A DNA stretch of 64,000 nt from Dehalobacter sp. DCA. Lineage in GTDB: Bacteria > Bacillota > Desulfitobacteriia > Desulfitobacteriales > Syntrophobotulaceae. This document shows, one piece after another, positions 3,336-6,811 of this stretch. Position 1 is the stretch's first letter. Each line of letters begins with the position of its first letter. The notes beneath the pieces are model-generated. The model worked only from the letters and a program-made list of their open reading frames with translations, was not told where the DNA came from and ran no database searches. A program made the translations under genes and the position numbers. The stretch lies in contig NC_018866.1 of assembly GCF_000305775.1 (NCBI RefSeq), positions 186,001 through 250,000 of the forward strand. Direction: 5' to 3'.

Positions 3336-3831
3336 GTGCGCCCGGCATGGGTAGCAACTCGGCGGTGAGAGTCCGCTGCACGCTTGGTAGTAGGAAGTGC
3401 TAGCCGAACGGCAAGGGTGTCCATCGTGAGGTGGAATCTGAAGCTATATACCACGGGGTGGCTTAATTATTACGCTATTGCCGGTATGAGGAGCAGAATT
3501 CAGGAACTGAACAGGTGGCTGAAACGACGGATACGGATGTATATCTGGAAGCAGTGGAAGAGACCAAAAACCCGAATCGGGAACCTGATAGCACTCGGCA
3601 TGTCGGTTTACTGGGCACACAAGAATGGGTACACTGGCAAAGGCTACTGGAGAGTAGCCGGGAGCGGGATACTTAATCATACGTTGACTGACAAATACCT
3701 CGAATCCCTCGGCTATGATGACATAGCCAAGAAATACGAGGTACTGCACTTAAACTATTGAACCGCCGTACGCGGAACCGCACATACGGTGGTGTGAGAG
3801 GTCGGGGGCGAGACGCCCCCTCCTACTCGAT
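3336..3831 (+). mobile_element. internally deleted group IIC intron
   Basis: The left end starts GTGCGCCCGGCATGGGT, the typical 5' end of group IIC introns such as the Oceanobacillus iheyensis one. The conserved domain I stretches GTGAGAGTCC and GCAAGGGTGTCC follow, up to GGAATCTGAAG near 3445. The sequence then jumps directly into the C-terminal part of the maturase gene. The right end holds a domain V hairpin (GAACCGCCGTACGCGG...TACGGTGGTGTGAGAGG, about 3761-3801) and a domain VI-like GC stem finishing at CTACTCGAT. About 1.3-1.4 kb is therefore missing compared with a full element, and it cannot make its own reverse transcriptase. It sits 3 bases after a perfect terminator stem, the classical class C target. 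Confidence 0.85.
3447..3761 (+). pseudogene. C-terminal remnant of group II intron reverse transcriptase/maturase
   Basis: From GWLNYYAIAGMRSRIQELNR to the stop, this reads as the maturase (domain X) end of an LtrA-type protein: LKRRIRMYIWKQWKRPKTRI, LIALGMSVYWAHKNGYTGKG, YWRVAGSGILNHTLTDKYLE. The reverse-transcriptase palm and fingers (including the YADD motif) are absent. An open frame reaches back to 3384, but that upstream part is ribozyme domain I read as protein. The fragment is not expected to be functional, and the intron would need a maturase supplied in trans. Confidence 0.85.
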
Positions 3832-3879: not shown

Positions 3880-5141
3880 TTAATTCAGCATATTCCAGGC
3901 AGAATCGGAAGTCATCCCTTCAATGTCCGGATAGGCGCTTTCGCCATGCTGGCTGATATCAAGGCCTGTTTCCTGTTCTTCAGTTGTCGCTGCAAGAGGA
4001 GTAATGAGACTGATGACTTTAAGGATCAATAAGGTCATCACGCCGCAGTAAGCGTAAGTCGCGAGGATGGCCAAAAGTTGTATCCCAACCTGGGAAAATG
4101 ACCCGGAATAGAAAAGTCCATCCACACCATTGGGATTCAAGGCTGTGGTGCAGAAAATTCCGGCAGCCAGGGTTCCCCAGGTTCCGCCAATGCCATGAAT
4201 GCCAAAAGCATCAAGTGCATCATCGTAACCCAGTTTAACTTTCAGCCAAGCGACTGCAAAGTAGCACAAACCTGAAGAAACCAGTCCAATCAAGACAGCA
4301 GCAAGCGGAGTCACGTAAGCGCAGGCAGGTGTGATGGCGCCGAGCCCTGCAACCATGCCTGAGACAGCACCGAGTACGGTTGGTTTGCCATGAAGCAGTT
4401 TTTCAATGATTATCCATCCCAGTAGTCCGGCACAGGCAGACAGGTGGGTAGTGGTAGAGGCAAGCACAGCAATACCGTCTGCAGCCAGTTCACTGCCGCC
4501 ATTAAACCCGAACCAGCCGAACCACAGGAGACCTCCGCCAAGAATCACATATGGAATGTTATGCGGGATAGCCTGCTCTGAGTCTTTATGGTAGCGTTTG
4601 CCAATATATAAAGCGGCAATCAAGGCTGAAAAGCCCGAACTTATATGGACGACAATCCCTCCGGCGAAATCCAAGACGCCCAGATCAGCCAGCCAGCCTC
4701 CGCCCCATACCCAATGAGCAAGAGGCGCATAAACCAAAAGGCTCCACAGGGAGATTAAAAGGATATAGGCTGGAAAGCGCAGTCTCTCCGCTGTTGCTCC
4801 GGTCATAATAGCTGGAGTAATAATTGCAAACATCATTTGATAGAGCATAAACAACATATGAGGAATTGTTGCACTTTCCGTTTTGGGATTCAGACCGACA
4901 CCTCTTAAGCCTGCATAGTCCAATCCGCCAATCAAATGCCCGATATCCGGCCCAAAAGCCAGGGTATAACCGATAACAATCCAGAGAATTGAGATAATTC
5001 CGATTGCAGCGATGCTTTGCATCATAATCGACAGGACATGGCGTCTTTTGACGAGCCCTCCATAAAAAAAGCGAGTCCGGGTATCATTAAGAAAACTAGG
5101 GCGGTGCTGAAAAGCATAAAGGCAATATCGCCATAATTCAT
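3880..5141 (-). pseudogene. amt: ammonium transporter Amt, frameshifted near the N-terminus
   Basis: A membrane ammonium channel/transporter of the Amt/Rh family. From FFYGGLVKRRHVLSIMMQS onward the protein is normal: the FGPDIGHL loop, WVWGGGWLADLGVLDFAGGI, the conserved HISSG and DDALDAFGIHGIGGTWGTLA, ending TGLDISQHGESAYPDIEG. The true start is the ATG at 5141, with AAAAGGAGAGATTGTA in front, giving MNYGDIAFMLFSTALVFLMI then PGLAF. That frame does not join the rest. A run of seven T (5064-5070, minus strand) would need eight to restore LAFFYGG. The long open frame extending to 5196 reads the leader out of frame and is not the real N-terminus. It may be a true null allele, a phase-variable homopolymer or a sequencing error. 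Confidence 0.85.
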
Positions 5142-5196
5142 TACAATCTCTCCTTTTTATCTTTGTCGTCCTTGCCAGCATCTCCTTGCCATTCAT

Positions 5197-5290
5197 GGCA
5201 CCGCGACATTCGTCCAGTCGAATGACTTTGTCATCTATGACGTATTCGACACCGTGAAGGCTATTTAAACGCCTCCACGCTTCCTGTGCC
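5197..5290 (-). ncRNA. candidate structured leader element upstream of amt
   Basis: On the minus strand, GGCAC (5290-5286) and GTGCC (5201-5197) could close a multi-branch fold. Inside it, GTGGAGGC and GCCTTCAC form a hairpin. GTCGAAT and ATTCGAC form a second stem enclosing GTCAT-AG-ATGAC. It lies 56 bases before the amt start codon and after a terminator. No known riboswitch class is recognised, and the fold is by eye only. Confidence 0.35.
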
Positions 5291-5306
5291 GTCGTCCGTA
5301 GACATC

Positions 5307-5365
5307 AAAAAAAGAAGCCCCCAAAAAAACCAGCTTGCAGGCTGACTTTTTTTATGGCTTCTTTG
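5307..5365 (-). terminator. nested strong terminator between capA and amt
   Basis: On the minus strand AAAGAAGCC pairs with GGCTTCTTT, A7 with T7, and CAGC with GCTG around CTGCAA, followed by T7. It may simply end the capA transcript. Because a promoter-like sequence lies just upstream of it (5375-5403), it could instead be an attenuator in the amt leader. A T-tract also exists on the other strand, so it may work both ways. Confidence 0.75.
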
Positions 5366-5374
5366 CCTAAGAAG

Positions 5375-5403
5375 AATATAATGAACATTCAGCAGGCTGT
5401 AAA
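5375..5403 (-). promoter_or_regulatory. candidate promoter upstream of amt leader
   Basis: Minus strand TTTACA (5403-5398), a 17-base spacer, TATATT (5380-5375). Transcription would start near 5368, in front of the terminator, which would make that terminator part of the amt leader. Confidence 0.5.
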
Positions 5404-5450
5404 GAGATAATAATGATAAATAATGTATACAGAGAGATATACTGTATACA

Positions 5451-6695
5451 TTATTCGTTGGCGAAGCGAATCCTATTTCCAGAAGGGATAGTTTGCTTGA
5501 TTTGAGATACATAGGCCAGCATTTCCGCATAATCTGCGCTGTCCAGCAGAGGATCCTGCCCTGACTGATAATCGGCCAGGGCCTTTGTCACATTTAAGAC
5601 ACGATATGTCTTTGGACCGGCTCCCGGAGTTTCATCAACCCAGGTCGGATAGTACGCAACATGCGTAATAACTGGTTTTTCTGAAGAACGGATATCCAGA
5701 AAAATGTTAACCATGATACCCATATTCGCCGTATCTGTTTTCTGATCGGAGATAAAATTTCCCTGAGCATAGATCACCAATCCCTCTTTTTCTTTACCAG
5801 TGGACTTGTTTTTTACTTGGAGAAAGGTGATCGGTTGGACAGCATGGACATGATTGCCCGCGATGATATCGACCTCCGTATTTTCGAAAATCCAGGTGGC
5901 CAGATTGACCTGTTCAACGGACGGTTTTGTGGCATACTCCGTTCCCCAGTGCAAAGAGGCAATAACTAAGTCTGCTCCCAGAGTGCGTGCCTTCTCAGCA
6001 TCCCTAAGAATTTTTTCCCGGTCCAGATAATTCACAGCAAAAGCTTTACCTTCAGGAAGGGTAACCCCATTGGTGCCATAGGTATAGCTTAAGAAAGCGA
6101 TACGCAGGCCGGAAATTTCCTGGATCAGAATTTCCTGACTGTCTTCGGCGGTCTGATAGGTTCCCGTATGTTTCAGACCATATTGATCCAGAAAATCGAT
6201 CATCCGGCTTAGGCCCGAAAAATTTCGGTCTAAAGAGTGATTATTGGCGGTAGAGACAACATCCACACCAAGTGTTTTCCGGACAGTATCAGCTATTTGT
6301 TCCGGGGTATTAAAGGAAGGATAACCGCTGTAAGTCATTTCTTTCCCGGCCAGGGTCGTTTCAAGATTGGCGAGAGTCAGGTCAGCGAGCCTTGTATCCT
6401 CCCCGATTTCTTCAAAAGAAGGTCTGAAATCATAGCCTCCGCTTGTCTGGGCGGCCTCGTACTGTGTTGGGTGGCACATGATATCCCCAAGCAGCGTAAG
6501 TTTAATTTGTGTAGACTCAGCAGCCTCAGGTTTAGAAGCAGCAGTCTCTGACGGATCACTTTCTGAAGCAGCACTATTGGCGGCAGGCATCAGTTCTGTT
6601 TCAGAAGCCAGCGGCGTCATGGTTTTTTCCCAAACGGTAACACTAAGAAGTAAGATCACCGCTGTAAATACAGAAAGCCAACGTTTTCTTAACAT
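5451..6695 (-). CDS. CapA family (poly-gamma-glutamate synthesis-type) metallophosphatase-like protein
   Basis: About 414 residues, with an N-terminal membrane anchor or signal (KRWLSVFTAVILLLSVTVW) and then a low-complexity Ser/Ala/Glu linker to about residue 65. The CapA domain follows: LTLLGDIMCHPTQ (metal-binding GD), DLTLANLETTLAG, VVSTANNHSLDRN, IASLHWGTEY, and IIAGNHVHAVQPI, which holds the conserved GNHxH. CapA proteins belong to the calcineurin-like phosphoesterase fold and are tied to polyglutamate or other surface polymers, but no capB/capC genes are nearby, so the substrate is open. The start is taken at the ATG at 6695 (AGGTGA upstream); a GTG at 6704 and an ATG at 6701 are in frame. 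It is divergent from the VTC/DUF4956/CotH cluster. Confidence 0.8.
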   Translation of the reverse strand: MLRKRWLSVFTAVILLLSVTVWEKTMTPLASETELMPAANSAASESDPSETAASKPEAAESTQIKLTLLGDIMCHPTQYEAAQTSGGYDFRPSFEEIGEDTRLADLTLANLETTLAGKEMTYSGYPSFNTPEQIADTVRKTLGVDVVSTANNHSLDRNFSGLSRMIDFLDQYGLKHTGTYQTAEDSQEILIQEISGLRIAFLSYTYGTNGVTLPEGKAFAVNYLDREKILRDAEKARTLGADLVIASLHWGTEYATKPSVEQVNLATWIFENTEVDIIAGNHVHAVQPITFLQVKNKSTGKEKEGLVIYAQGNFISDQKTDTANMGIMVNIFLDIRSSEKPVITHVAYYPTWVDETPGAGPKTYRVLNVTKALADYQSGQDPLLDSADYAEMLAYVSQIKQTIPSGNRIRFANE

Positions 6696-6811
6696 AGCCA
6701 TCACCTAAATTCTTCACAAATTTGTTAACCAGCGTTCACATTAATGACACATAGAGTGGATAAAATAGCATCATCAAAAGATCGTTGGAATATGCGACAG
6801 GGGGTGAGCAT

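Follow-up and report, generated by a model that had tools for sequence, protein, structure and literature searches.

In this study, we describe a leader of the ammonium transporter gene amt whose terminator (5364-5307, minus strand) probably acts as a transcription attenuator under the control of an ANTAR-domain RNA-binding protein, as judged from sequence comparison. The leader is located in a window of 64,000 nt, the whole stretch of DNA analysed here, from Dehalobacter sp. DCA; coordinates without prefix refer to this window. Table 1 lists the features of the locus.

Table 1. Features of the amt leader and its surroundings in the window.
Feature	Position	Strand	Basis
capA-like gene (PGA_cap), same strand, upstream of amt	5451..6704	minus	Pfam PF09587
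Inverted repeat AATGTATACAG-n9-CTGTATACATT, likely operator upstream of the amt promoter	5422..5452		sequence
Sigma-70-type promoter TTTACA-17-TATATT of amt	5375..5403	minus	consensus match and conservation in relatives
Hexaloop hairpin GGC-AAAGAA-GCC, ANTAR P2-like, predicted antiterminator; loop 5364-5359 (A1, G4)	5356..5367	minus	
Intrinsic terminator, exclusive with the hexaloop hairpin	5307..5364	minus	folds, covariation, model R1
Terminator parts: 5' arm, 3' arm, T run	5364-5356, 5319-5311, 5313-5307	minus	
Repeat-derived segment including the 94-nt element (5290-5197)	5159..5306	minus	parts dispersed, no compensatory change
Ribosome binding site of amt, AAGGAGAG	5148..5155	minus	sequence
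amt, ammonium transporter, ATG at 5141, frame interrupted near the start in the assembly	3880..5141	minus	Pfam PF00909 on the main part

Read on the minus strand, the capA-like gene is followed by the inverted repeat, the promoter, GGCAAAGAAGCC (5367-5356), the terminator, approximately 150 nt of further leader, AAGGAGAG and the ATG of amt. GGCAAAGAAGCC starts 7 nt after the -10 box and opens a nested terminator that ends in T7 (5307). A sequence-only reading of this DNA had already named the promoter, the terminator with its T7, a 94-nt segment closed by GGCAC/GTGCC and the ribosome binding site, and all of these are found where it had placed them on the minus strand. The hexaloop hairpin, the inverted repeat and the frame break in amt are additions to that reading. 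The amt gene itself is split over two frames, with the break in a T run (5064-5070) approximately 24 codons past the start. The break may be a real mutation, a slippage site or an assembly error, and intact amt homologues are present in the same genus. As the frame is broken in the assembly, the gene behind the attenuator may be a damaged one. The genome has a second amt, which is one open frame and is preceded by the same element. Downstream of amt, a group II intron match (RF00029) was observed at 3761-3831 on the plus strand, with 41.4 bits against a cut-off of 40.

The promoter of amt, TTTACA (5403-5398) and TATATT (5380-5375) with a 17-nt spacer, matches the consensus at 10 of 12 positions and is the best such site between 3000 and 8000. 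Since this range holds 10 sites with at least 9 of 12 matches while 10.3 are expected, the consensus match on its own proves nothing, and the promoter is credible because relatives keep it. It had been proposed from the sequence alone and proves to be conserved together with amt: among 12 leaders of the window's family, CTCTTTACAG is present in eight, and TATATT serves as the -10 box in seven. Only 7-8 nt separate the end of the -10 box from the P2-like hairpin (P2 in the following) in the window, in L006-L008, which are nearly identical to it, and in L009-L012, so that with a normal start P2 would come first in the transcript; in the window, transcription would presumably start at A5368. The other leaders of the order mostly have a larger gap of 15-57 nt (L025 excepted). 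Upstream of the amt promoter, the inverted repeat at 5452-5422 is perfect and comprises two TGTATACA boxes. The pattern TGTATACANTAT has three matches in the whole genome, all at this inverted repeat, while the same pattern read backwards, used as a control, has one. Of the 24 motif-bearing amt leaders, 19 also carry GTATAC ahead of the hexaloop. The inverted repeat is likely an operator for a DNA-binding regulator, as far as its sequence tells.

The hairpin at 5367-5356, located within the 5' arm of the terminator, has a C:G closing pair and a hexaloop with A at position 1 and G at position 4 (A1 and G4). We searched 41 genomes for amt, found it in 32, and inspected the 500-nt upstream regions of 31 amt loci, of which the window's own genome contributes two. 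The motif RGCAANGRNGCY (RGC-AANGRN-GCY) was found close behind the promoter at 24 of these 31 loci, as compared with 40 of 15,500 mononucleotide-shuffled regions. Some of the 24 are nearly identical to one another (L006-L008 and the window; L022 and L023). In all 24 motif-bearing leaders, the GCY half forms the 5' arm of a terminator, and at least seven T are present in the 12 nt after the arm. Seven amt loci are without the motif, six of them in genomes that encode an ANTAR protein. The motif also occurs in six of 80 listed amt loci of other, mostly distant organisms (one of them G013 again), some of these perhaps by chance.

For the analysis of covariation, 17 of the 24 leaders, all from other genomes, were aligned (alignment A3). 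The alignment omits the two own-genome leaders L003 and L004 as well as L006-L008, L023 and L030; the element of L023 is identical to that of L022. The terminator pairs in 91% of the cells, and 37 cells are changed on both sides, compared with 11.4 in shuffled alignments, none of which (0 of 500) reached as high a value. The covariation score is 0.54 for the terminator in register and at most 0.19 when slid. As the sequences in A3 are related, the covarying changes represent few evolutionary events. The nested terminator of the sequence-only reading is thus conserved with amt and covaries in 17 leaders. The hexaloop hairpin pairs in 51 of 51 cells, and its outer pair is A-U in ten leaders, G-C in seven and broken in none, although the 5' base of this pair (column 2) lies outside the terminator stem. 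Column 13 covaries with column 2 in the hairpin and with column 51 in the terminator. All 17 leaders share loop positions A1 and G4 and the C:G closing pair; G4 is retained even in the 6 of 17 in which the terminator places a U opposite it. Two mutually exclusive structures which both covary are what an antiterminator/terminator switch would predict, unlike a plain terminator.

The published targets of EutV carry AGCAANGRRGCUY at the 5' base of the terminator and hexaloops with A1 and G4 (PMC3369931), and the selection with NasR yielded a C:G pair at the top (PMC3369931 and PMC7496416). The leaders of the order read AGCAAAGAGGCUC and similar, which makes their recognition sequence the same as the published EutV motif.

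A covariance model, R1, was built from A3 and hence contains no sequence of the window's own genome; its E-values are rough. In the own genome (3.07 Mb), two matches fall below E 0.001, each before an amt gene: one of 42.4 bits before the second amt, and one of 31.2 bits (E 7.4e-4) at 5307-5368 of the window. The third match has an E-value of 0.11. In relatives, we picked 20 R1 loci by hand and took the first open frame of at least 80 codons as the downstream gene. In 13 of them this gene is related to nitrogen, namely GSIII glutamine synthetase (glnN, four), glutamate synthase (gltB, five), nifH, PII, glnA and amt (one each), the last with two tandem elements. The other seven precede hutP, a chemotaxis-type sensor, a GntR regulator, a solute-binding protein, DUF5665 and two genes without an assigned family. 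Three loci (L131, L138 and L145) have neither a proper hexaloop with intact outer pair nor a nitrogen gene downstream, which indicates that R1 has false positives; the model also matches the opposite strand of some strong terminators. At L142, positions 346-488 (G006:C8:82645-82787), two near-identical tandem hexaloop/terminator units were observed before a second amt. The links to hutP at L132 and L028, which are described below, may mean that a second RNA-binding antiterminator is wired into the same circuit.

The genome encodes a single ANTAR protein of 188 aa (G000:C1:575766-576332), with one PF03861 match of 47.8 bits against the curated cut-off of 27.3. ANTAR proteins were aligned with an HMM, types were told apart by eye, and residues were compared in the EutV numbering of PMC8934654. 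The protein keeps the equivalents of R142, K143, Y164 and M172, while K147, an RNA contact in EutV, is replaced by Q. At the position of D54 it has G instead of the phospho-accepting Asp, so that its receiver is a pseudo-receiver and phosphorylation is unlikely as the signal; Asp is found there in 8 of 50 aligned ANTAR proteins. All 11 genomes of the window's family with an amt motif have a sole ANTAR protein with Gly (Ser in G010) at the D54 position and Gln at 147, but Gln at 147 also occurs in other ANTAR types of the order and is thus not specific. Among the aligned proteins, the ANTAR types did not sort cleanly by target gene; G037, G039 and G040 carry strong amt elements, yet their ANTAR proteins are of Ser type and Asp type. 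In the 3.2 kb around the ANTAR gene in L001, no AmiC-like gene was found; the neighbours are a phosphodiester glycosidase and a weak Transglut_C-like match.

An ANTAR protein is encoded in all 23 genomes with an amt motif, compared with 9 of 18 others. Across 82 genomes of the class, an R1 match at E <=0.001 was found in 56 of the 69 genomes with ANTAR and in one of the 13 without (Fisher p 7e-7, uncorrected for kinship). This one genome, G057, is 85% complete. Thirteen of the 69 ANTAR genomes lack a match at E 0.001, e.g., G042 and G052, and at E 0.1 the ANTAR-less genomes G008 and G012 match weakly (E 0.004 or more). In two genera, element and ANTAR protein are both present or both absent (G072 versus G035; G021 versus G009 and G017). 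In G040, an ANTAR gene follows glnA behind an R1 element. The control of amt by termination or antitermination, which the sequence-only reading had considered, thus gains support from the conserved promoter-terminator layout, from the covariation of the exclusive structures and from the co-occurrence with ANTAR.

Implementing these observations, we propose the following course of events. A polymerase starting at TTTACA/TATATT would make GGC-AAAGAA-GCC first, and these approximately 12 nt would fold into the hexaloop hairpin; a regulator bound to the GTATAC repeat may modulate initiation. An active ANTAR protein, presumably binding the hairpin, would hold it in place, and because the 3' half of the hairpin is the 5' arm of the terminator, the latter could not form and amt would be transcribed. 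Without active ANTAR protein, the terminator would win and transcription would stop at approximately 5307; readthrough from capA would face the same gate. The folding of the hairpin and its hold by ANTAR are proposed here on account of conservation and of what is known from the family. The likely trans-acting factor is the only ANTAR protein of the genome, the 188-aa pseudo-receiver, which in the absence of a phospho-accepting Asp presumably takes its signal from a partner or ligand that reports nitrogen status. PII proteins are candidate partners; the genome has four PII matches, one of which contains an internal stop. Judging from the target genes, which suggest both direction and signal, amt would be on when nitrogen is scarce.

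In the known systems, a second hairpin, P1, precedes P2, with a P1-P2 linker of 5-12 nt in the eut genes of E. faecalis (PMC3369931), and P1 is required for antitermination in that organism (Ramesh 2012, PMC3369931; Walshe 2022, PMC8934654). No P1 hairpin was found in the window. Among the 24 motif-bearing leaders (60 nt searched), P1-like A1/G4 hairpins occur in two (3.1 expected), and none has one whose 5' closing base is G or C (0.9 expected). Among 38 distinct leaders (45 nt searched), a strict P1 with A1, G4 and a G:C closing pair is found in none (0.6 expected), and A1/G4 with any closing pair in four (5.2 expected). A hairpin upstream of P2 with G4 only is, in turn, present in seven of the 38, compared with 1.5 in shuffled sequences, with none of 300 shuffles as high. 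All seven belong to one genus (g12) of another family and represent three distinct hairpin sequences, which makes a degenerate P1 possible in that genus. These leaders (L102, L104, L151, L152, L153, L156 and L158) have C or another base at position 1 and may be intermediates between dual and single hexaloop.

As a positive control, the 80 listed amt loci from other, mostly distant organisms were scanned in a similar way; they come from a listing of named genomes that by its own description excludes near relatives. A loose pair-of-hexaloops rule matched six of them (L169, L181, L206, L213, L216 and L231), of which L169, L181 and L206, all from other phyla, are convincing by eye as dual hexaloops. 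At L169, P2 is part of a terminator, while L181 and L206 have none. The dual hexaloops of the latter two, from Deltaproteobacteria MAGs, are located close to the start codon before amt, as seen by eye; this layout suggests translational ANTAR control. Among the same 80 loci, L171 and L182 show a single hexaloop with terminator.

The element of the window thus seems, from its sequence, to be a single-hexaloop variant in which the upstream P1 is missing. Whether it belongs to a class of single-hexaloop ANTAR attenuators, in which the transcript would start at the hairpin and a pseudo-receiver ANTAR protein (Gly or Ser, Gln at 147) would act without a recruitment hairpin, we consider evenly balanced. 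As P1 is required for antitermination in E. faecalis, an element without P1 might not be controlled in this way.

Between terminator and ribosome binding site, the leader contains the 94-nt segment, for which the sequence-only reading had suggested a structured regulatory element. The fold of 5300-5190 is modestly stable (z -2.4 against shuffled sequences, 6 of 200 as good). When 31 genomes were searched, the whole 148-nt stretch 5306-5159 was found in the amt leaders of only G000, G001, G002 and G004, all of one genus, and pieces of it recur both in the family and in the own genome, where one at C1:1476555, for example, shows 88% identity over approximately 75 bp. A dispersed repeat family was observed within 5159-5306, with a 35-bp piece like TGGACNAATGTCGCGGTGCCATGGATGGCAAGGAG that has many copies in the own and related genomes. 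Eight of 19 own-genome piece loci that were fetched matched at E 0.001; seven of these eight pieces are located outside stop-to-stop frames of at least 150 codons, three of them inside shorter frames. The predicted 94-nt fold keeps 22, 28 and 27 of its 31 pairs in three relatives, with no compensatory change; two of these relatives have lost two of the five closing pairs, and six pairs are gapped in G002. Covariation of its stems, which the sequence-only reading had named as the test of its own proposal, was found in none of these three relatives. A search of the leader against Rfam gave no family at gathering scores, only weak unrelated matches below the threshold. The stretch 5306-5159 is best read as a putative repeat-derived filler between terminator and ribosome binding site. 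Two hexaloop-like stems of the 94-nt segment (AUAGAU and ACUGGA) were considered as a dual ANTAR site for translational control; this idea was rejected because the first stem is absent from G002, the second is broken in G001, and the segment derives from repeats.

Several other explanations have to be weighed against the attenuator. That the hairpin is solely the intrinsic terminator of capA, followed by an unrelated spacer and an amt that is constitutive or separately regulated, would agree with a strong terminator located downstream of capA on the same strand, and it was the alternative offered by the sequence-only reading. However, such a terminator would sit downstream of a conserved promoter and would block amt. 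The same layout precedes amt where the upstream sequence differs (by eye: L010, L011, L013 and L014), the element recurs before the second amt of the genome, and the bases on the 5' side of the terminator stem either do not vary or take part in a pair. The element thus stays with amt rather than with capA, and we regard the capA explanation as very unlikely. A role of the 94-nt segment as a regulatory RNA for amt, be it riboswitch, leader or ANTAR-type translational element, could call on its modest stability and on the two hexaloop-like stems, but a dispersed repeat mosaic that is whole in only four of the 31 genomes searched, all of one genus, and is free of compensatory changes and of any Rfam match at gathering score, is an extremely improbable regulator.

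Two further explanations retain the exclusive hairpin. A canonical dual-hexaloop ANTAR target, with a P1 that is degenerate or located further upstream on a longer transcript, is suggested by the excess of G4-only hairpins and by a start site deduced from the position of the -10 box. The G4-only leaders are, however, confined to genus g12 of another family, a strict P1 is found in none of the 38 leaders, the similar scan does recover dual hexaloops at amt loci of other phyla, and the -10 box of the window and of L006-L012 is too close to P2 for a P1 to fit in between; there is hence little likelihood of a hidden P1. Another RNA-binding regulator, e.g., a HutP-like one, could act on the exclusive hairpin instead of an ANTAR protein. 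An R1 element is located before hutP in G027 (L132), in G034 a hutP-like gene is the immediate upstream neighbour of amt (L028, by eye), and the co-occurrence of ANTAR and element could come from kinship. Against this stand the agreement of the hairpin with the published ANTAR recognition sequence and the A1/G4/C:G rules, and the ANTAR gene that follows glnA behind such an element in G040, and we hold a regulator other than ANTAR to be hardly probable.

Like the dual-hexaloop targets (eutP/eutG of E. faecalis, nasF of Klebsiella, amiE of Pseudomonas; PMC3369931, PMC8934654), the hairpin described here has A1, G4 and a C:G closing pair. Its 3' half likewise lies in an intrinsic terminator, the gene belongs to nitrogen metabolism, an ANTAR protein is encoded in the genome, and the 13-nt recognition sequence agrees. 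Unlike in these targets, the leader of the window is without P1, and its P2 would be located at the 5' end of the RNA. The ANTAR protein resembles the AmiR-type pseudo-receivers (PMC7496416, PMC8934654) in its N-terminal receiver-like domain without phospho-Asp and its C-terminal ANTAR domain; it differs from them in the lack of an AmiC-like neighbour, in Q at the position of EutV K147, and in its presumed target, ammonium transport. The clostridial nitR/glnA antitermination (PMC4676874) likewise ties an ANTAR-type antiterminator to ammonium assimilation, and the order glnA-ANTAR is found in G040; here, in contrast, amt would be the target, and it is not linked to the ANTAR gene.

The idea that ANTAR proteins control amt is in itself not new, as ammonium transporters are among the genes with putative ANTAR targets in Ramesh 2012 (PMC3369931). 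In Walshe 2022 (PMC8934654), one hexaloop is proposed as the minimal ANTAR binding site, two hairpins are kept as necessary for antitermination, and the role of single hexaloops is left open. In a literature search of titles and abstract openings, we found no report of the single-hexaloop arrangement, and 'single hexaloop' together with ANTAR gave only Walshe 2022. If the single-hexaloop reading is true, P1 would be dispensable for antitermination in nature. With conserved single-hexaloop candidates before ammonium-assimilation genes, and with the dual-hexaloop amt leaders of other phyla as a natural contrast, the role of single hexaloops becomes directly testable. From a biological point of view, the attenuator would provide this group of bacteria with a circuit that places ammonium uptake under nitrogen control.
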